Shown piece after piece: positions 4 to 14,512 of a stretch of DNA of 32,973 bases. Source of the stretch: Gammaproteobacteria bacterium (lineage in GTDB: Bacteria > Pseudomonadota > Gammaproteobacteria > Steroidobacterales > UBA11654). The translations under genes and the position numbers were made by a program. Location: NCBI GenBank assembly GCA_002717445.1, contig PBDY01000022.1, positions 1 to 32,973 of the forward strand, read 5' to 3'. Position 1 is the stretch's first letter. Each line of letters begins with the position of its first letter. The notes under the pieces are model-generated. The model saw only the letters and a program-made list of their open reading frames with translations, made no database searches and had not been told where the DNA came from.

Positions 4-2385
4 TCAGGCAACAGGATGCGCGCTATCCATGAATCCTTGCATGGGACTCATGCTTAAATCAACACCAAACTCTCTGTCTGCCTTTGATTCGATAGACTCA
101 TATAGTGTATTTCTGAGTCGAGGTTTTCTGCCGGCATTTTTAATGAATGCTCGCATTCTTTTTGCTTCAAACTCCTGACCATGAATGCTTCCAGCAGCTT
201 TTGAGATTGATTCATTCATCAAAGTTCCACCCATGTCATTTACCCCTGCGTTGAGACAACTCAACGCGCCTTCTTTTCCAAGCTTCACCCAACTCGCTTG
301 AATGTTATTGATGTATGGATTTAAAGCTATTCTCGATACTGCATGCATCAGCAAAACCTCGCTAAAAGTAGGTCCAGGCCTCGCATTCCCTCTTTTATAC
401 ATGGGCGATTCCATGCTCACATATGGCAGCGGTATGAATTCAGTGATGCCACCGGTCTCTTTTTGAATTTCTCTTAATTTTATGAGGTGAGTTGACCAGT
501 CAGAAGGTTCTTCGGTATGACCAAACATGATTGTGGAGGTGGTTCTTATGCCAACTCTGTGAGCGGCCTTAATGACATTCATCCATTCCTTAGAACCCAA
601 TTTATCAGGACAAATATTTCTCCTGACGTCATCATCCAAAATTTCTGCAGCCGTGCCCGGCATAGTGCTTAGGCCTGCCTCTTTCAGTTTTTCCAGATAT
701 TTATCCACTGGCAATCCCAATGAGTTTGCCCCGTGCGTGACTTCTAAAGGAGAGAATGCATGGATGTGGATTTCAGGAACCCGTTTTTTTATTGCCTTAC
801 ATATATTGATATAGGTATAGCCATCATAGTGAGGATGAATTCCCCCTTGAAGGCAGACCTCATGAGCCCCTCTAGACCAAGCCTCAGATGCTCTATTAGC
901 AATTTCATCGTTATCAATGAGGTATGGTTTACCCCTTAAATTTTCCTTTGTTTTACCTTTTGAGAATGCACAAAAATGACAGGAATATTTACAGATGTTG
1001 GTGTAATTGATATTTCTAGTGATGACATAGGTCACTTCTTCGCCATTCATTTTTTGTCTCATTTCATCTGCATGACGAAGAACCCGATGATAATCAGGAC
1101 CTCGGGTATAAAAAAGTTTGGTAATTTCATGATGATTTAAGTCGATTCCATGAAAAGATTTATCGAGGATATTTTCTATTTCCTTGGAAACATGACTTGA
1201 TTCATTGAATATCCAGCTACCGTAATATCCAGATTCGGGAATCGCAGATGATTCACCACAGCGCCATTGATCATGCCTCCCATAACCCGATGAATCAGAA
1301 AGCTCCAAGATGCCTGAACGCAAGTTTTTATCACACCAAGATTGATCTTTGATGTAATCCGGGTAAATCGCCAATCGCTCAACAAGTTCCAGCCCTTGAT
1401 TATTTGTTATTTCTTCCAATTGCTTAATTTGTGGCCACGGTGATTCAGGATTTACATGATCAATTGTGATTGGCGAGATGCCACCCCAATCGTTGATTCC
1501 GCAATCTAGAATTTCATCAAGGTAATCCGAATTGAGATTAGGCGGACATTGTATGTTCATGTTTTTTCCAAAAATAATTCTTGCTGCCGATAACGTCCAA
1601 AGAAGATCCTCTCGAGATGCAGGAGTGTGCTTTCTCATTCTCGTGCCTTCTTTGGGAATAAAGTTTTGAATGATCACCTCTTGGATATGACCAAATTCAT
1701 CATGCATTTTTTTTATATCAAGAAGGCTCTGAATTCGCTCTTCAATGGATTCACCAATACCAATCAGTATACCGGTGGTTATTGGTATTCTCAGTTTTCC
1801 AGCATTTTTTATCGTTTGCAGTCGAGTTTGAGGGTATTTATCTGGCGATCCATAATGCGGCCCACCCTTATTGCAAAGTTTTTCTGAGCTCGATTCCAGC
1901 ATGATACCCATGGAGACAGAATGCTCCCTAAGCATTTCCATTTCTTGAACCGTCATATTTCCAGGATTTAAGTGTGGGAGTAGGCCCGTTTCTTTATAGA
2001 CCAATTTCGCCATAGAGCCCAAATATTCGATCGTTGTCTTAAAGCCCAATTTTTTAAGATGATCTCTGGCAGTTTGATACCTTAACTCGGGCTTTTCACC
2101 AAGCGTAAATAAAGCCTCTTTGACATATTGCGATTTGCCTTCCTCTGCAATGTCGAGGACTTCCTCAGGTTCAAGATAGGGTGTTTTGAGTTTTTTGGGT
2201 GCTTTTGCGAAAGTGCAGTAATGACAGACATCACGACAAAGTTCAGTCAAAGGAATGAATACTTTCTTGGAGTATGTGATCACCTTCGTGTCAGCTTCTC
2301 TGATCTCTTTGGCTTTTTGCATTAAATCATCCAACTCATGGGAATTGAGTAAAGATAAATAATGATTCAGTTCTTGTTTAGGCAT
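4..2385 (-). CDS. fbiC: FO synthase, fused CofG/CofH type (FbiC)
   Basis: A radical SAM protein that makes the deazaflavin chromophore FO (7,8-didemethyl-8-hydroxy-5-deazariboflavin) from tyrosine and the riboflavin precursor 5-amino-6-ribitylamino-uracil. Two radical SAM halves are visible: a CofG-like half with a C-x3-C-x2-C cluster motif at about residues 50-57 (CRDVCHYC) and the hallmark INDWGGISP, then a CofH-like half with CKYSCHFC at about 465-472, EVCLQGGIHP and GTAAEILDDDVRR. At 793 residues it has the length of fused FbiC proteins; archaea use two separate proteins. I chose the ATG at 2385 over a TTG one codon upstream; the Shine-Dalgarno is weak. It is the last gene of the F420 operon, 43 bases after cofC. 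Assignment is very secure. Confidence 0.96.
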   Translation of the reverse strand: MPKQELNHYLSLLNSHELDDLMQKAKEIREADTKVITYSKKVFIPLTELCRDVCHYCTFAKAPKKLKTPYLEPEEVLDIAEEGKSQYVKEALFTLGEKPELRYQTARDHLKKLGFKTTIEYLGSMAKLVYKETGLLPHLNPGNMTVQEMEMLREHSVSMGIMLESSSEKLCNKGGPHYGSPDKYPQTRLQTIKNAGKLRIPITTGILIGIGESIEERIQSLLDIKKMHDEFGHIQEVIIQNFIPKEGTRMRKHTPASREDLLWTLSAARIIFGKNMNIQCPPNLNSDYLDEILDCGINDWGGISPITIDHVNPESPWPQIKQLEEITNNQGLELVERLAIYPDYIKDQSWCDKNLRSGILELSDSSGYGRHDQWRCGESSAIPESGYYGSWIFNESSHVSKEIENILDKSFHGIDLNHHEITKLFYTRGPDYHRVLRHADEMRQKMNGEEVTYVITRNINYTNICKYSCHFCAFSKGKTKENLRGKPYLIDNDEIANRASEAWSRGAHEVCLQGGIHPHYDGYTYINICKAIKKRVPEIHIHAFSPLEVTHGANSLGLPVDKYLEKLKEAGLSTMPGTAAEILDDDVRRNICPDKLGSKEWMNVIKAAHRVGIRTTSTIMFGHTEEPSDWSTHLIKLREIQKETGGITEFIPLPYVSMESPMYKRGNARPGPTFSEVLLMHAVSRIALNPYINNIQASWVKLGKEGALSCLNAGVNDMGGTLMNESISKAAGSIHGQEFEAKRMRAFIKNAGRKPRLRNTLYESIESKADREFGVDLSMSPMQGFMDSAHPVA

Positions 2386-2428
2386 CAATCTTTTATAGCT
2401 TTTTCATGAGCCCAAAACAATCTTAAAT

Positions 2429-3040
2429 TCATATCTTCAGCGGGTTTTTTTCTGGTTGATACCGTTTGACCAAATATTCCCAATCGTCTTGGTCATCCAG
2501 ATCAAAGCTCAATCCTTCAATGGATTGAATATTTGTTTTTAATTTCTCGATTTTCGAGGCCTGCACATGTTTACGAAAACTATTCGTGCCAAATTGAAAA
2601 CTAATTCTTCGCGGAAGGTCGCAGATAAGAGCATTCGTGCCCCCATCTTTTTTTGCCTCGACAATTGTCAGGCCTTCGCTATGTGATTCAATCATTCGTA
2701 TAATGTCTTTTTCTTCCACAAGCGGGAGATCAATGGATAGGTAGATCAATTTTTTTGCACCCATCCCGCAAGCCATATCTGCAACAGAATCAATTTTTCT
2801 TTTAAAGGACTGCTGACCTTTGTCTTCATGGATGATTAATTTTGAATGCTTGATTTTTTTTGACCAGTTTGTCTCAGAAGTAAACACAATTACTTTTTCG
2901 ATCCCTTTCATTGGAACAAGGATATGAATCAATCGGGTCGATAAATTTTTTGCCAACTCAATTCTCTCATCCAGATCAAGAATGGGGGAGAGCCTACTGA
3001 GTGATTTAGAAAAGGTATTTATTGGGATGATTGCCCACAT
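2429..3040 (-). CDS. cofC: 2-phospho-L-lactate guanylyltransferase family protein (CofC/FbiD)
   Basis: Nucleotidyltransferase of the MobA-like fold that joins GTP to a three-carbon phospho-acid (2-phospho-L-lactate, phosphoenolpyruvate or 3-phosphoglycerate, depending on lineage), giving the activated side chain for F420. Seen: an N-terminal MWAIIP strand, the DLPL metal-binding segment, a GGTNAL motif and FGTNSFRKH, all typical of CofC/FbiD. About 203 residues, a normal length. The ATG at 3040 follows the cofD stop after one base; a TTG 12 bases upstream would overlap cofD and is less likely. The substrate cannot be decided by eye. Family assignment is strong and supported by the operon. Confidence 0.93.
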   Translation of the reverse strand: MWAIIPINTFSKSLSRLSPILDLDERIELAKNLSTRLIHILVPMKGIEKVIVFTSETNWSKKIKHSKLIIHEDKGQQSFKRKIDSVADMACGMGAKKLIYLSIDLPLVEEKDIIRMIESHSEGLTIVEAKKDGGTNALICDLPRRISFQFGTNSFRKHVQASKIEKLKTNIQSIEGLSFDLDDQDDWEYLVKRYQPEKNPLKI

Positions 3041-3041
3041 T

Positions 3042-3998
3042 TTATGAATCAATCTCTTTAATAAAATTAACGCTTTCTTCTGCCAATCTCATCTTTTCTT
3101 CTTTGGTATTGACAATGATTTTAGAGAGTTTGACTTCGATGCCCAGCTTTGTGATTTTCTCTGCTTCTTTCTCATCGCTTCGATCAATGATCATTCCATC
3201 AATTAAGCCTTGATAGTGTTTTGCAATAGACACAGAAGAAACCTCAATTCCCATTTCATTCATTAACTTCGATGTTGGGCCTTTGATGGATTTTTGGCCA
3301 ACAATTGGAGAGATAGCCACCCTTGGTTGATTGTGATTCTCGATTAATTTTCGTATCCCATCGATTGAGAGAATGGGATCGATGCTTAAAAAAGGGTTGG
3401 AAGGACAGAATATGACACCATTTAGATTTTTATCCAACAGAGCTTTCTTCACTGCATCTGTTGCCACTGGGTTCTTAGACTTAAATATAACCTTGGAGAC
3501 CTTTGGCTTGCATTTCTTTCTTACAAAATAGTCTTGAAAAGAAATCTCCCCATCTTCAGTTTTCAGAACGGTTTGGACCGTGTGATTACTCATTGGAAGG
3601 ATATTGGTTCTCAGGCCAAATTTCTTGGTAATTTTTCTGGTTATTGTGGTCAGCAGTTCACCGTTTCTTGTTTCTTTTGATCTAAAGAGGTGAAGTGCCA
3701 AATCTTTATCTCCAACTTTAAACCAAGTATCTGCACCCAATTCTTTCAGGACATCCAATGTTTTCCATGTTTCATCTTCTCGTCCCCATCCCGTTTTCGG
3801 ATTACTCACTCCTGCCAAGGTATAGATGACTGTATCGATATCAGGACAAATATAAAAACCCAGATACAAGAAATCATCGCCCGTATTTGTAATGATGCTT
3901 AGATTTTTCTGCTTAAGGGTATTATTCAAGCCCAGCGCAAGTTTTGAGCCTCCAATGCCTCCGCATAATGCAACGATTTTTGTGTCGCTGTAATTCAT
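3042..3998 (-). CDS. cofD: 2-phospho-L-lactate transferase (CofD/FbiA)
   Basis: Transfers the activated phospho-acid made by CofC onto FO, giving F420-0 or dehydro-F420-0. Seen: an N-terminal CGGIGGSKLALGL nucleotide-binding segment, NTGDDFLYLGFYICPDIDTVIYTLAG, and the central CPSNPFLSIDPIL segment, all characteristic of the CofD family. At 318 residues it is family-typical. Its ATG overlaps the cofE stop by four bases (ATGA), which implies translational coupling. Whether the product is saturated F420-0 or the dehydro form depends on the donor and is not visible here. Confidence 0.96.
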   Translation of the reverse strand: MNYSDTKIVALCGGIGGSKLALGLNNTLKQKNLSIITNTGDDFLYLGFYICPDIDTVIYTLAGVSNPKTGWGREDETWKTLDVLKELGADTWFKVGDKDLALHLFRSKETRNGELLTTITRKITKKFGLRTNILPMSNHTVQTVLKTEDGEISFQDYFVRKKCKPKVSKVIFKSKNPVATDAVKKALLDKNLNGVIFCPSNPFLSIDPILSIDGIRKLIENHNQPRVAISPIVGQKSIKGPTSKLMNEMGIEVSSVSIAKHYQGLIDGMIIDRSDEKEAEKITKLGIEVKLSKIIVNTKEEKMRLAEESVNFIKEIDS

Positions 3999-4774
3999 CG
4001 AAATAAATCTTCCTCAGCTGACCTAATTAGATCCTTCACCGTATCAGAGTCATCACACAAGTCCAAACCTCTAACAATTATTGCAGGTGTGCCCTCAGAG
4101 CTTTCACCCATTAAAAGTGTGGACGCAGATGCGATTTGATCGGCAACACCAATGACTGTGCTCTGTAATAATCTTCCGTCTCTATCGAACTCGTTGTTTC
4201 TCAAATCCATTAAAGTTTTTATTCCGGATGAACCCAGCGCATGACCAGTCGTGCCTAATCGCCATGCTCTTCCAATGCTGTCAGTGATCAAAACCCCAAT
4301 CTTAATTTTGTAAAGACCCTGAAAATAATTTTTGATTTTTCTTGCGGATGCATCAGGATCTTTTGGTAGCAAAAGGACATGATCACTTGTTCTCGCAATA
4401 TTGGATCGATCAATGCCAGCATTTGCAAGTATGTGCCCCAGTTTATGCTCAACAACCAAAATGCCTTTTTCGGCACGAATAATTTCGTTTGCTTCCCCAA
4501 GGATTGACTCAACCAATCTTGGATCTTTGTCGGTTTTTTTTGAAATTTCTAATGCTTTCTCAGAGGGTTTTACTGTTTTTAGATCAACAAATCTGTCTTC
4601 AGATTTTGAAATAATTTTCTGCGCAATAACTAAAATGTCTTTATTTTTAAGATCAAGATTTTGATCTGTTAAGCACCGATTGATAATGTGAGGAACATCA
4701 TCATCCGGATTGATTTCTGGGATATTTTGAATCGCAGTTAGGTTGAGCTCAGAACCAGCATATTTCTTGTTCAT
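3995..4774 (-). CDS. cofE: Coenzyme F420-0:L-glutamate ligase (CofE), single domain
   Basis: GTP-dependent ligase that adds L-glutamate, and probably further gamma-linked glutamates, to F420-0. Seen: LVIAQKIISKSE near the N terminus, IRAEKGILVVEHKLG, and ITDSIGRAWRLGTTGHALG, which are family signatures. It is 259 residues, the size of archaeal CofE. Actinobacterial FbiB carries an additional C-terminal FMN-dependent reductase domain that reduces dehydro-F420-0; that domain is absent here. The ATG is 21 bases after the npdG stop. Function is secure; the number of glutamates added is unknown. Confidence 0.95.
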   Translation of the reverse strand: MNKKYAGSELNLTAIQNIPEINPDDDVPHIINRCLTDQNLDLKNKDILVIAQKIISKSEDRFVDLKTVKPSEKALEISKKTDKDPRLVESILGEANEIIRAEKGILVVEHKLGHILANAGIDRSNIARTSDHVLLLPKDPDASARKIKNYFQGLYKIKIGVLITDSIGRAWRLGTTGHALGSSGIKTLMDLRNNEFDRDGRLLQSTVIGVADQIASASTLLMGESSEGTPAIIVRGLDLCDDSDTVKDLIRSAEEDLFR

Positions 4775-4795
4775 TTCAGGTTTTTAGCTTATTTG

Positions 4796-5446
4796 TCAAT
4801 GACTGGTAATTTTTATACCCGATGACTTCAATTTGTGTTTTTGGTTGATTGAAATAAGAACCGATGTCAACGCTTCGGCAGCAGCTGAATTCTCAATTGA
4901 GCCAGCATGCCAGCACGTTAACCCAAGATCCGTAATGAGAGCAATGGCTTTGTCAACCGCATCATCTGAGTTGCCACATACCAAAACTTCAGCATGTGGA
5001 TCTTCTGATCCCACTAGATGAGAGCCAATATTTTGCAAAGCTGACACCACATGAACCCCTTCACCAAGAAGCAACTGCGCTTCGAGTGCTGCGGAACCAG
5101 ATTTAGGTAGGTTTACTTTTGTCACAGGTTTTGAGAGCGGTACCGTTGTATCGATTAAAATCTTTCCTCCAAGAAATGGCTTAATTTTTTGAAGCGTCTC
5201 TATATGGCTAGAGTAGGGCACCGTAAGAACTGCAATCTCACAATTTTTTGCAGTTTCCATCAAGTCACTTCCCGTGACATTTTTATTTCCAATTTCAGCA
5301 TTGATCTCTTCAGCCACAGAAATTGCTTTTTCTGCATTTCTTGAGCCAATGATGATCTGATGACCGGATCCTGACCATTTTCTTGATAATGCAGAACCGA
5401 GGGCACCTGTGCCACCAAAGACGCCAATTACTTTTGCGCTACTCAT
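4796..5446 (-). CDS. npdG: F420-dependent NADP+ oxidoreductase (NpdG/Fno)
   Basis: Moves hydride between reduced F420 and NADP. Seen: a Rossmann N terminus [10 protein letters not shown] at about residues 7-16, GSRNAEKA for NADP recognition, LTVPYSSH, and [11 protein letters not shown] in the second half, consistent with the Fno/NpdG family. The ATG at 5446 lies inside the end of ilvD, giving an 8-base overlap; a TTG two codons upstream is possible but weaker. It sits at the head of the F420 genes, so it is probably the route by which the cell charges or discharges F420. A different NADP reductase of the same fold is possible in principle, but the operon argues strongly for F420. Confidence 0.9.
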
Positions 5447-7292
5447 TGTCAATGATTCCTTTTATTTGTCTAACAGCCCCATCCGATGCGGATGATGCCA
5501 ATAATGCATACGCCTGCAACGCCAAGCTAACGGTTCTATTTCTTTTACTGGGTTTCCAAGCTTTTTTCCCAAGAGAAACCATTTCTTTCCTTCTCATCTC
5601 CAACTCTTCATCCAAGAGATCAACTTCAATGGATCTTTTTGGAATATCAATATTAATGATGTCTCCATCATTAATGAGAGCAATATAACCTTTTGATGCT
5701 GCTTCAGGGGACACATGCCCTATGGATAAACCGGAAGTCCCCCCTGAGAATCTTCCATCCGTGATCAGTGCACATTTTTCACCCAGTCCTTTGGCTTTTA
5801 AGTAACTGGTTGGGTATAACATTTCCTGCATGCCTGGACCACCTTTGGGTCCCTCATATCGAATGACCAATACATCACCCGAAACAATTTCATCTCCGAG
5901 AATTGCTTCAACCGCATCGTCTTGGCTTTCAAAAACTTTTGCAGGCCCACTAAAGGTTAGGATCTTCTCATCCACGCCAGCCGTTTTTACGATACAACCA
6001 TCGGTTGCGATATTTCCTTTTAATACTGCCAAACCTCCATCTTGACTGTGGGCATTGTCAGAATTCCTAATGCATCCATTTTCTCGATCCGTATCCAGTT
6101 GCGGATATCTTTTATTTTGCGAGAATGGCTGAGTCGTTGGAATCATTCCAGGCGCTGCTGAGTAGAATTCCTCGACTTCAGAAGATGGTTTCCTATTAAT
6201 ATCCCATTTATTTATGGCATCCAGCATTGTCTCTGAATGAACTGTTTTGCTGTCAGAATTGAGTAATTTTGCTTTCTCAAGTTCTCCCAGAATGGCCATG
6301 ATGCCACCGGCCCTATGAACATCTTCCATATGAAAACTGCTGCTTGGCGCAACTTTGCATAAGTTTGGAACCCTTCTCGATAAGCGATCAATGTCATCCA
6401 TTCCGAATTCAAGCTCAGCCTCTTTGGCTGCTGCAAGTATGTGAAGGACGGTATTGGTTGAACCACCCATGGCTATATCCAATGTCATGGCATTTTCAAA
6501 TGATTCTAGATTCGCTATATTTCTTGGAAGAACGCTGCCATCATCCTGTTCATAGTATTGTTTGGTTAATTCGACAATTATTCTTCCTGCCCTTAGGAAA
6601 AGCTCCTTGCGATCAATGTGTGTTGCAAGCACGCTTCCATTCCCAGGGAGTGCGAGCCCCAGAGCCTCAACCAAACAATTCATCGAATTGGCAGTGAACA
6701 TTCCTGAACATGAACCACATGTAGGGCACGCCGATCTTTCAATTTTTTCAACCTCTTCATCAGAAACACTCGGATCTCCGGCCAGAACCATGGCATCAAT
6801 CAAATCCAAGCTTGCCTCTTGCCCCTTCACCAAACCTTTTCCAGCCTCCATCGGTCCACCAGAGACAAAAATAGTTGGTATATTCAGCCGCATTGTCGCC
6901 ATCAACATTCCAGGAGTAATTTTGTCACAATTAGACAAGCAAACGAGCGCATCTGCACAGTGAGCATTTGCCATGTATTCAACTGCATCCGCTATTAATT
7001 CTCTAGAAGGCAAGCTGTATAGCATTCCTGAATGCCCCATTGCAATTCCATCATCAACGGCAATGGTGCTGAATTCTTTGGCAACTGCACCTGATTTCTC
7101 AATTTCTCTAGCAACCATTTGACCCAAATCTTTGAGATGAACATGGCCCGGCACAAACTGAGTAAAAGAGTTGGCGATTGCAATGATTGGTTTTCCAAAA
7201 TCATCATCACCCATGCCAGTTGCACGCCAGAGAGCTCTTGCTCCTGCCATATTCCTTCCATGTGTTGATGTTTTTGATCTGTAATCAGGCAT
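5439..7292 (-). CDS. ilvD: Dihydroxy-acid dehydratase
   Basis: Fe-S dehydratase that converts 2,3-dihydroxy-isovalerate and 2,3-dihydroxy-3-methylvalerate to 2-oxo acids in valine, leucine and isoleucine synthesis. The 617-residue protein is close to the E. coli enzyme from its first residues ([18 protein letters not shown]). Cluster-region cysteines are visible at C122 ([11 protein letters not shown]) and in CPTCGSC at 189-195. It starts with ATG at 7292 and overlaps npdG by 8 bases, so it heads the same transcript as the F420 genes. I know of no general functional reason for this pairing, which may be a simple insertion behind a housekeeping gene. Confidence 0.98.
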
Positions 7293-11360: not shown

Positions 11361-12014
11361 TTATATCCTTTTGATAAATTTCCTATAAAACTTTTCTACA
11401 AAAGTGGGTGAATAATAAGTCGTATCTTCTCTTGAGATATTATCATAAGACCTCTTGTATTTATGCTTTACCCAAGCATTTAGGTCTGTTTTTTTTAATA
11501 AATTAAAAACAATGTTTTTAAAATATCCACTCCGATCATATTTGACGACAGCGGTTCCAAAATCAATAAGATAAGGCTTTAGGTTTTTATCAACCATAAG
11601 ATTGTCTTTTCTTTTGAGATCTCCATGAGCAATACCCAGGTCATGGATTGAAATGATGATTTTTAGAAGAGAGTTAAAGAAGTGATCATTGCCATCTAAC
11701 TCAAATTGCTTATCTCTATATGACTCTCCATCTATATATTCAAGTACCAAATCTCCCTCATTGGTTAAACCATAGCATTCAGCGATTCCTGTCACATTTT
11801 TGAGTCTTTTATAGATATTGTATTCATGTTTAATGCTCCATCGGTTAACCCATGTAGACCACCAATGCTTTATTTTTGCCGATTTAACAAGATAGGTTTT
11901 TTCATTGAGCTTAACTTTGAAGAGTTTGCCTTGATTGCCCTCAAATAGGGCCTCAGAAGCTTCTGATGATTTTAGCTTGAATGCAATTGTTTTGAGTAAC
12001 TCTTTATTCTCCAC
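11361..12014 (-). CDS. Small protein-kinase-fold protein
   Basis: A compact 217-residue kinase-like protein. Visible catalytic elements: YLVK with lysine 44, a KHE glutamate at about 64, the catalytic loop HGDLKRKDN with D132 and N138, and LIDFG with D151. The spacing fits Bud32/RIO or lipopolysaccharide-core kinases better than Hanks-type bacterial serine/threonine kinases, and the glycine loop is poor. Very basic in its second half. Starts with GTG at 12014, nine bases after the methyltransferase stop, preceded by a purine-rich GAGAAA. The substrate could be a protein, lipid A core sugar or small molecule. Confidence 0.75.
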   Translation of the reverse strand: MENKELLKTIAFKLKSSEASEALFEGNQGKLFKVKLNEKTYLVKSAKIKHWWSTWVNRWSIKHEYNIYKRLKNVTGIAECYGLTNEGDLVLEYIDGESYRDKQFELDGNDHFFNSLLKIIISIHDLGIAHGDLKRKDNLMVDKNLKPYLIDFGTAVVKYDRSGYFKNIVFNLLKKTDLNAWVKHKYKRSYDNISREDTTYYSPTFVEKFYRKFIKRI

Positions 12015-12023
12015 TTTCTCAAT

Positions 12024-12626
12024 CTATCTTAGTGCAAGAATAATAAGCCAAGTAATAACATATATTACAATGACTGGTTCGTAGTTTGACTTTAAGCTTT
12101 TCGAGAAAGACCATTCTTTAAAAGAGAACCCTTTTTTTATATTGCCACCATTGATTTTAGGTAAAAGTGCTGGCGTATTATTTGCCCATTGAGGCCAATC
12201 AACAGGAAACAATTGCTTTAACTTTCTGTCTTCATATTCGATTGCAGTTGGGTAATAGAAAACAGCAAAGACGAAACCAACTAGAAAGGACCACCACAAA
12301 CCATTAATGAGCGCCAGTCCAGTTAACAGCACTAAATTTCCAGTATAGAGAGGATGTCTTACAAATGAGTATGGACCGGTTGTGGAAAGTTCTTTATTTT
12401 TTAGCACATAACCTGATGCCATTAACCTAATTAATAGTCCAATTATGGCGATTACATATCCCGCCTCTATTTGAAAAGGAATGGCCGGGTTTAACGGTGT
12501 GAAATAACAGAAAATGCTTACGAGAATTATTCCAAGACTTTGTCTAGAAAATTCGTGGTATCGCATCTCTCTGATGAGATATTTAACCCCTCTTAGCTGA
12601 GACAGATCTTCAGTTCTATGAGGCAT
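12024..12626 (-). CDS. ICMT/PEMT-like membrane methyltransferase
   Basis: A 200-residue integral membrane protein of the isoprenylcysteine carboxyl methyltransferase/phospholipid methyltransferase superfamily. The signature TTGPYSFVRHPLYTGN at about 82-97 holds the RHP triad, and a second conserved block IEYEDRKLKQLFP follows at about 129-141. About four to five hydrophobic segments surround these, and one more lies at the C terminus. It would use S-adenosylmethionine at the membrane. Bacterial members often act on unknown lipids or small thiols. It starts two bases after the preceding gene's stop. Family is clear; substrate is unknown. Confidence 0.8.
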   Translation of the reverse strand: MPHRTEDLSQLRGVKYLIREMRYHEFSRQSLGIILVSIFCYFTPLNPAIPFQIEAGYVIAIIGLLIRLMASGYVLKNKELSTTGPYSFVRHPLYTGNLVLLTGLALINGLWWSFLVGFVFAVFYYPTAIEYEDRKLKQLFPVDWPQWANNTPALLPKINGGNIKKGFSFKEWSFSKSLKSNYEPVIVIYVITWLIILALR

Positions 12627-12628
12627 AA

Positions 12629-13501
12629 TTACTTCCTTTTATTATTCACTTCTTCAACAAATGCTTTATCAATCGAAGTAATACCCTGATCTTTTGCCTC
12701 TTTGACAATGCTTTTCAGTGCAGGTTTTAAAAAGACTTTTGGTATCCCAGTCAATTGCTTACAAGCATTTTCAGTGAAAGCAATATCCTTATCAAGTCTA
12801 TTCGCAATATACATAACTGCATCATGTTTTGATCCTTTGTTCTCTGGTGTTGGCAGCCAAAAAGCTTTTTTATGTTTTGCAAACCAGAATTGATTGGCAT
12901 TTCTAAAGCCAAAGCTGATCGGCATATTTGGTATCTCCATGTCATTGCCTTTATCTAAATTATTCCTCCATTTCTCTCGTAGGTGGATGTGATTAATTTT
13001 TAAAAGCAAATATTCAGTATGCTCTGTTCCAGCATAGTAGAAATCTTCTGGGTTATCATTGAGTTCACATTCAAATACTTGGAAAGCTTCTTTGATGATT
13101 TTTGGTCTTTCTGAGTCGCTGACAAATGACTCTGTTGGTGTTTCTTCTAGCTCAAAAGAGCAGTCTTCCATTTTTTCATCAGGAGGTTGTCCTGGATATC
13201 CAAGATCGACAATATTCGGGATCTTTTTTTGATCATATTCAATAAAATTAAGGGCACACTTCTTGTTTCGTAATAGGTTCTTTGATGTGTTTGAACCTCT
13301 TCTTGATATCATGATCCATTCTCTTCGCTCAATTACACCAAACGGGAATGTCAGTTGATAAGGGCCTATACTTGTTACACCTTCTTCATTGACAGAGGTG
13401 ATTAATGCAAATGAGCTTAGGAAATAGGAGCTGGACTGGTACCAATTATTGTGCATTGGGCTTTCAATCCATCTATCGGTTTTCTTTTTCCAAAAAGACA
13501 T
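12629..13501 (-). CDS. Flavin-reductase-like split-barrel protein with PCP_red-like tail
   Basis: A 290-residue protein. Residues about 25-100 (GVTSIGPYQLTFPFG, then ISRRGSNTSKNLLRN and CALNFI) resemble the FMN-binding split barrel of flavin reductase-like proteins. The last 45 residues (LTGIPKVFLKPALKSIV, AKDQGITSID) resemble PCP_red, the small helical domain at the C terminus of protochlorophyllide reductase subunit B. It starts with ATG at 13501, divergent from a DUF169 gene whose tail is a clearer PCP_red domain. It heads a run of six genes. Both domain calls are by eye and moderate. A flavin or F420-type cofactor is possible; no substrate can be named. Confidence 0.6.
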   Translation of the reverse strand: MSFWKKKTDRWIESPMHNNWYQSSSYFLSSFALITSVNEEGVTSIGPYQLTFPFGVIERREWIMISRRGSNTSKNLLRNKKCALNFIEYDQKKIPNIVDLGYPGQPPDEKMEDCSFELEETPTESFVSDSERPKIIKEAFQVFECELNDNPEDFYYAGTEHTEYLLLKINHIHLREKWRNNLDKGNDMEIPNMPISFGFRNANQFWFAKHKKAFWLPTPENKGSKHDAVMYIANRLDKDIAFTENACKQLTGIPKVFLKPALKSIVKEAKDQGITSIDKAFVEEVNNKRK

Positions 13502-13549
13502 AAGCTGATTCTAACGCTTTTTTTAAATATAAATACTATAATTACATAA

Positions 13550-14512
13550 ATGAGAGATCTTAGTGTATTAGATGACTCTCTTAGGGGGAAAGTGAGAGGC
13601 AATCCAGTTGGAGTTAGTCTTTTTTATTCAGAGATCCCAGAAGAGTATCAAAAAAAGAAAGTGGTTCCTTGTTCCATCGTAAGGCACGCCATGGACAAGG
13701 GTGAAGTTGTTTCATTTGACAAGCATCACCACGATTGCACCACTGGAGTCTACACCGCAGGCGTTCATGAGGGCACAGAAGAGATTAGAAGTGGACAATA
13801 TCTTGCAGTAAACATTCCTGTCTATACTGATGAAGCCGCTGAAAAGATAAAGTCAGGAGATTATATCCTGCCTCAAGATACGGTTGTTGGCATTGGTGCC
13901 GCACCAATATTGGACGTACCAGAGAGTGTCGACATCGATTGGATTGTGGTTGTCTGCAATCCTCATTGGGCAAATTTTATAGGAGGGGCTAGAACGGTAA
14001 TTGATGGTACGCCACCTCGAGGTGCATGTGGATCATCATTCTGCAGTGATCTATTCGCAACACCATGGCACGATGACAATGTCGTTATTACGCCCGGTGA
14101 CTTGGGTGGAAGAATGAATAATCGATTAAAGCCTGAGGAGATGTTTGTGGTGATACCAAGCAAATATCTAGACAGTTTACTCACCATAATGACTTCCATA
14201 CCCGATGCGAGAGCAGTGCTGGAGGCCACAAAACCAAAGGACTCAGATTATTGGAAGAAAAGAGAACGTGCAAAGCAGGCCAAGAAGCAGATTGACCAAT
14301 CAACTGGAGATGATTCTTTTGACTCAAAAGTCAGTATGAATTGGAGCGCAGAAGCCAAAGCCATGATTTCAAAAGCCCCAACAGGCATCGTTGAAATGGC
14401 CATCAATAATGTTGAAGATTTTGCCAGAGATAATGGGATTTATGAAATCGATGAAGAGGTTGTGCTTGATCAAATGAAAAGCGTAGGGATGGACCCAAAG
14501 ATGCTTTCATAA
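13550..14512 (+). CDS. DUF169 family protein with C-terminal PCP_red domain
   Basis: A 320-residue protein. Residues about 10-225 fit DUF169 (COG2043): VPCSIVRHAM, a KHHHDCTTG segment, GACGSSFCSD, and a late GGRMNNRLKPEEMFVVIP. The tail, residues about 262-315, fits PCP_red well: MNWSAEAKAMISKAP, then VEDFARDNGI and IDEEVV, matching the W..EA...L...P......VE.FAR..GI..I pattern. Several cysteines and a histidine cluster might bind metal or an Fe-S centre. The start ATG is 48 bases from a divergent gene with a similar tail; a TATAAT eight bases upstream would give an almost leaderless message. Function is unknown. Confidence 0.75.
   Translation: MRDLSVLDDSLRGKVRGNPVGVSLFYSEIPEEYQKKKVVPCSIVRHAMDKGEVVSFDKHHHDCTTGVYTAGVHEGTEEIRSGQYLAVNIPVYTDEAAEKIKSGDYILPQDTVVGIGAAPILDVPESVDIDWIVVVCNPHWANFIGGARTVIDGTPPRGACGSSFCSDLFATPWHDDNVVITPGDLGGRMNNRLKPEEMFVVIPSKYLDSLLTIMTSIPDARAVLEATKPKDSDYWKKRERAKQAKKQIDQSTGDDSFDSKVSMNWSAEAKAMISKAPTGIVEMAINNVEDFARDNGIYEIDEEVVLDQMKSVGMDPKMLS

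Follow-up and report, generated by a model that had tools for sequence, protein, structure and literature searches.

The divergent gene pair

The stretch of DNA analyzed here (the window, 32,973 nucleotides) is one whole contig of a gammaproteobacterial genome of 1.5 Mb that is 84% complete; the close relatives that carry names, MED641 and AG-365-L08 among them, comprise bins of Gammaproteobacteria and one single cell. It contains a divergent pair of genes encoding a split-barrel protein (hereafter SB1) and a DUF169 protein, with the coordinates and arrangement given in the original prediction. The latter also suggested that both products end in a domain of the PCP_red type, which is best known from BchB, a subunit of the light-independent protochlorophyllide reductase. 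The features are:

4–5452, minus strand: coenzyme F420 biosynthesis genes CofGH, CofC, CofD, CofE, and NpdG, each above the NCBIfam cut-off of its model
11361–12014, minus strand: small protein-kinase-like gene, next downstream after the methyltransferase (PF00069, E 1.5e-10)
12024–12626, minus strand: PEMT/ICMT-like methyltransferase, directly downstream of SB1 (PF04191, E 1.4e-11)
12629–13501, minus strand: SB1, FMN-type split-barrel protein (flavin reductase/flavoredoxin-like) with a PCP_red-like tail, ORF of 290 aa
12632–12832, minus strand: PCP_red-like tail of SB1, residues 224–290, domain core approximately 236–283 (hhalign)
13502–13549, no strand: divergent intergenic region, 48 bases between the start codons (ORF calls)
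13550–14512, plus strand: DUF169 protein with PCP_red tail, 320 aa (PF02596 and PF08369)
13589–14179, plus strand: DUF169 core, residues 14–210 (PF02596)
14342–14464, plus strand: PCP_red tail of the DUF169 protein, residues 265–305 (PF08369; fold match 2KRU)
G000:C8:121008–121835 (L001 859–1689), same genome as the window pair: SB2, another split-barrel protein that clearly ends in PCP_red

The spacing of 48 bases is identical in two relatives (G003 and G008), and scanning 13502–13549 for promoters revealed no sigma-70-like site. The methyltransferase is a conserved neighbor of SB1 in the window's family (11 close loci), and the protein-kinase-like gene is present at 10 close loci. The earlier remark that no photosynthesis genes are near agrees with a search of the 84% complete host genome for PCP_red proteins, which returned only the window pair and SB2 and neither BchB nor BchZ.

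The DUF169 protein scores 86.9 bits against PF02596 (cut-off 27; E 2.3e-24). At its C-terminus it passes PF08369 (33.2 bits, cut-off 32.5), and in fold comparison the modeled tail best matches 2KRU, the PCP_red domain of known structure (Z 8.8, rmsd 2.2, 58 residues); the protein carries a true PCP_red tail. Outside the tail the structure model is poor (pLDDT 57). The match to the full-length BchB model covers the tail region only (26.9 bits versus 509). In the fold comparison, which used model residues 253–318, lid domains of the AAA+ ATPase RuvB tied behind 2KRU (Z 8.0–8.6, approximately 1.8–1.9 Å over 60 residues). Four cysteines of the core (Cys41, Cys63, Cys136, Cys165) are invariant among tailed members, and Cys41, Cys63, and Cys165 are also kept in a tail-less DUF169 protein (L045); judging by this conservation, they could possibly hold a cluster or metal. 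Searches of PDB sequences found no solved DUF169 structure, the DUF169 profile matching BchB tails only, and no relatives were found in viral contigs. The literature on DUF169 that we found consists of a transposon fitness entry (Desulfovibrio, nitrate) and passing mentions; we found no role assigned to either DUF169 or non-photosynthetic PCP_red.

SB1 was modeled with a pLDDT of 87 and has the FMN split-barrel fold. Its fold matches cover residues 20–218 and include 3hmz (Z 19.1) and the FMN-bound 3e4v (Z 17.9); the top Foldseek matches were NbaA (4z85) and the NtaB-like 3bpk. The core thus shares the fold of the flavoredoxin/NADH:FMN oxidoreductase family (PF01613; 3hmz, 3e4v, 1eje, 2d5m; Z 16–19), but SB1 differs by its score of 18.7 bits, under the cut-off of 27, and by the extra tail; the paralogous SB2 family reaches 60–64 bits. 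The reductases of two-component flavin monooxygenases (NtaB-like 3bpk; HpaC 2d36) have a split-barrel fold as well and sit by a luciferase-like enzyme, with which SB1 and SB2 are likewise clustered in one related family, f15. The SB1 of the window differs in that no luciferase-like gene adjoins it; as none was found among the window genes scanned, the oxygenase linkage of a two-component reductase is not seen here. To our knowledge, the PCP_red tail is absent from NtaB and HpaC.

Kinship of the two tails

While the tail of the DUF169 protein was recognized directly, that of SB1 stays below the Pfam cut-off and was connected to PCP_red by profiles. Single-sequence Pfam and NCBIfam scans gave nothing significant for it, hmmscan gave no PF08369 match, and the genome search yielded a sub-threshold 12.8 bits (E 0.23; cut-off 32.5) at 12650–12775. 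Taken alone, this single-sequence result would go against the original prediction, which had named a non-significant PF08369 match in SB1 as evidence against itself; it is, however, overruled by profile–profile comparison. The profile of the SB1 tail, built from 76 homologues, aligned in hhalign with the tails of BchB (E 4e-6, prob 87, 41 columns) and with the DUF169 tail (E 1.5e-6, prob 90), whereas split-barrel core controls gave E 0.3–0.5. A profile of the DUF169 tail in turn recovered SB1 homologues from Erysipelotrichaceae, Firmicutes, and Bacilli bins (E 2e-4 to 7e-3). Homologues of SB1 match PF08369 at the same position in a Thermodesulfobacteriota bin (E 3e-4) and a Lokiarchaeota bin (E 1e-3), the best score of 21.1 bits being still under the family cut-off. 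In the predictions, both tails run from a strand through a short helix, a long helix, and a further strand to a final helix. Moreover, standalone proteins of 65–86 aa match the SB1 tail and, weakly, PF08369. In 10 of 10 loci examined, from two families of the order, such a protein lies beside a DUF1015 gene:

G000:C22:9766–9963 (L100); also L022 and L025–L033: standalone tail relative beside DUF1015

Because of these profile matches, homologue scores, standalone relatives, and the predicted element order, we call the SB1 tail PCP_red-like and do not treat it as a Pfam member; the case for its homology to PCP_red is indirect but consistent. The pair differs from the known occurrence of the domain in that a DUF169 protein and a split-barrel protein carry it in an apparent non-phototroph.

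SB1 including the tail was found at full length in Gammaproteobacteria and in bins labeled Actinobacteria, Thermodesulfobacteriota, Firmicutes, and Lokiarchaeota. Judged by the alignment of the 76 homologues, which come from several phyla, conservation of the tail is similar to that of the core: mean identity is 47% in the tail versus 54% and 43% in two parts of the core, and positions conserved to at least 80% make up 25% of tail and core alike.

Gene neighborhoods and other carriers of the domain

The gene calls in the relatives were mechanical, and many of these genomes are metagenome bins with possibly wrong labels. In the window's family, f1, SB1 lies beside the DUF169 gene in all 11 genomes, the gap being 48 to roughly 120 bases or occupied by a single cytochrome c gene; in one of them (G005) the DUF169 gene is divided between two contigs. 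A tailed DUF169 protein occurs in 16 of the 196 genomes of the order, all 16 of which also encode SB1 and CofE, although such counts do not come from phylogenetically independent cases. The single case of a tail-less DUF169 protein found in this survey (G011) is from a genome lacking SB1. In f15, DUF169 and SB1 are not neighbors. Tailed neighbors with unrelated cores recur, as SB1–DUF169 in f1 and as SB1–SB2 in other lineages. SB1 and SB2 are divergent and 127 bases apart in family f13, and SB2 is found within 8 kb of SB1 in 11 named loci in total, including two bins labeled actinobacterial. One f15 locus (L228) has on one strand SB2, an alpha/beta hydrolase, a luciferase-like gene, and SB1; in another (L233) a luciferase-like gene is 74 bases from SB1. 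In a bin labeled delta-proteobacterial (L250), SB1 follows 44 bases after a gene resembling, by eye, old yellow enzyme/dienoyl-CoA reductase. In Firmicutes bins SB1 stands alone and has no recurrent partner.

Beyond f1, the tailed DUF169 gene adjoins a short-chain dehydrogenase (SDR) in G067 and G089, overlaps a luciferase-like gene in G161, and lies beside an RND efflux-type gene (by eye) in G130 and G138. DUF169–SDR loci number four intact and one broken in f1 and are found in two of five cases in f15. Since the adjoining SDRs of f1 and f15 are 57–60% identical, this arrangement is probably the older one, and the SDR was probably lost in the window's subclade, where only the bare divergent pair is left, neither the cytochrome c gene nor the SDR of other f1 members being present. 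In G009 (L189 7261–9107), the DUF169 tail and the adjoining SDR appear broken by stops or frameshifts, through either decay or assembly error.

The tail is only about 45–65 residues long and sits on at least eight types of core. Within the order it also ends VanA-type Rieske oxygenases that are adjacent or fused to an SDR: Rieske, PCP_red, and SDR share one frame of approximately 760 aa in L168 (5543–7810) and L176 (5812–8094) and are separate adjoining genes in L091 and L177. A TauD-like dioxygenase in an f13 genome (L169 6901–8424, minus strand) has a weak PCP_red tail (20.5 bits, below the cut-off). A radical-SAM protein ending in PCP_red scores best with the AhbD and NirJ2 models, without reaching the cut-off of either, and its gene adjoins one for a Usp protein with PCP_red repeats in L164, L104, L165, and L167 (four repeats in L164, 5283–8554). 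Genomes with BchB mostly carry a second PCP_red protein of about 500 aa, presumably BchZ. Across families the tails lack a conserved Cys or His, which makes a metal or axial tetrapyrrole ligand shared by these tails unlikely; an Fe-S or heme ligand within the tail was set aside for this reason. Fusions of Usp and PCP_red in archaea likewise place the domain outside photosynthesis, although on another core, and the part of that paper available to us describes no flavoprotein or DUF169 partner for them (PMC12159084).

Possible functions of the pair

SB1 would be an FMN-binding split-barrel protein of the flavin reductase/flavoredoxin kind, most likely a donor of electrons or reduced flavin for partner oxidoreductases, with its C-terminal domain acting as a protein-docking module. 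The DUF169 protein, with its homologous domain, would be one such partner in the window's family and might contact SB1 directly, and SB2 would be the neighboring tailed partner in related families; the enzymes that accompany tailed genes are of the luciferase-like, SDR, or Rieske oxygenase type. We give this reading as a whole about an even chance. For the tail itself, a docking (or regulatory) module that joins SB1 to partner oxidoreductases is the most likely function, and docking fits best because a small helical domain occurs alone, in repeats, and on unrelated redox enzymes that are clustered. The earlier suggestion of docking on a common partner or on each other is supported in part, as the homology of the tails and the recurrence of tailed neighbors argue for a common function or docking. 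Against docking speak the unlinked DUF169 and SB1 genes of f15 and the Firmicutes SB1 without a recurrent partner; furthermore, a well-studied flavin reductase transfers its flavin by diffusion, without docking (PMC10816480). The link of DUF169 and PCP_red to SDRs, flavin reductases, and luciferase-like enzymes offers a first testable function for both domains; it would also hint that a tail known from chlorophyll synthesis is one of a broader class of modules for protein docking. A bolder version, which we regard as unlikely, takes PCP_red for a general docking tag that assembles unrelated redox proteins of non-phototrophic bacteria into common complexes (flavin reductases, DUF169 proteins, Rieske and TauD oxygenases, SDR fusions); the window pair would then be its minimal form, with SB1 reducing the DUF169 protein as a cysteine-containing enzyme, and the domain of BchB would be of the same kind.

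The main rival to docking is an intramolecular regulatory domain, autoinhibitory or effector-sensing, by analogy with AbHpaC, the reductase C1 of the Acinetobacter baumannii HPA 3-hydroxylase. Like SB1, that enzyme has an accessory domain C-terminal to a split barrel of this type; in AbHpaC the domain holds back flavin reduction as long as no 4-HPA is bound (PMC10816480). The AbHpaC structures 5zc2 and 5zyr are among the fold matches of SB1, and a regulatory role could explain why one tail occurs on many cores. The accessory domain of AbHpaC is, however, MarR-like, larger, and not PCP_red; the short standalone tail proteins and the Usp protein with four copies fit a binding module better than regulation, for which a tail of this size is also small, and regulation does not predict that different tailed genes should adjoin. 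We consider this explanation somewhat unlikely, yet the most serious competitor. Mere coincidence, with two unrelated proteins each acquiring a common mobile domain, is hardly credible: the domain is indeed promiscuous and the two genes are unlinked in f15, but with three tailed enzymes in a genome of 1.5 Mb the chance adjacency of two is below approximately 1% by our estimate, and pairs of tailed genes with different cores are found repeatedly in further lineages. It also appears very improbable that the tail binds a tetrapyrrole or helps to hold an Fe-S cluster and that the pair acts on a tetrapyrrole. The presence of the domain in BchB, in the probable BchZ of phototrophs, and on the radical-SAM protein with its best, sub-threshold scores for AhbD and NirJ2 would agree with this, and the core cysteines of DUF169 might hold a cluster; yet the tails lack a conserved Cys or His, the TauD, VanA-type Rieske, and SDR fusion carriers have no evident link to tetrapyrroles, and BchB and BchZ are missing among the PCP_red proteins of the host genome. 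The earlier idea that the tail supplies such a ligand is thus not upheld.

Another possibility is that the pair belongs to F420 metabolism and that SB1 and the DUF169 protein use or recycle this coenzyme. The window encodes the complete F420 pathway with NpdG as one operon; this operon stays near the pair in conserved order in close relatives, and the luciferase-like partner enzymes resemble F420-type models, below cut-offs. Besides accompanying every tailed DUF169 protein, CofE is found in 29 of 40 SB1 genomes outside f1, as against 55 of 185 genomes overall, but this co-occurrence is confounded by phylogeny. Several kb with genes for IlvD, pyruvate dehydrogenase E1, and homocysteine methyltransferase, unrelated to either, separate the F420 genes from the pair. 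The fold of SB1 is nearest to FMN proteins, and neither SB1 nor the DUF169 protein matched an F420-dependent family (FDOR, LLHT) in the model scan. SB1 is likewise present in bins of Erysipelotrichaceae and Clostridia. Furthermore, seven f13 genomes, in which SB1 and SB2 are adjacent, contain SB1 without CofE, as do two of the three genomes with the SB2–LLM–SB1 cluster (G098 and G110, assigned to L220 and L228 from their contig positions). SB1 accordingly does not need F420, and its dependence on the coenzyme was set aside; a role of the pair in F420 metabolism is improbable. Luciferase-like genes are present in 10 of 10 genomes of the genus and are for this reason other likely users of F420. 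Why Proteobacteria produce this coenzyme has been stated to be an open question (PMC8498797). In several relatives of the host, a luciferase-like gene lies approximately 9 kb beyond CofE.
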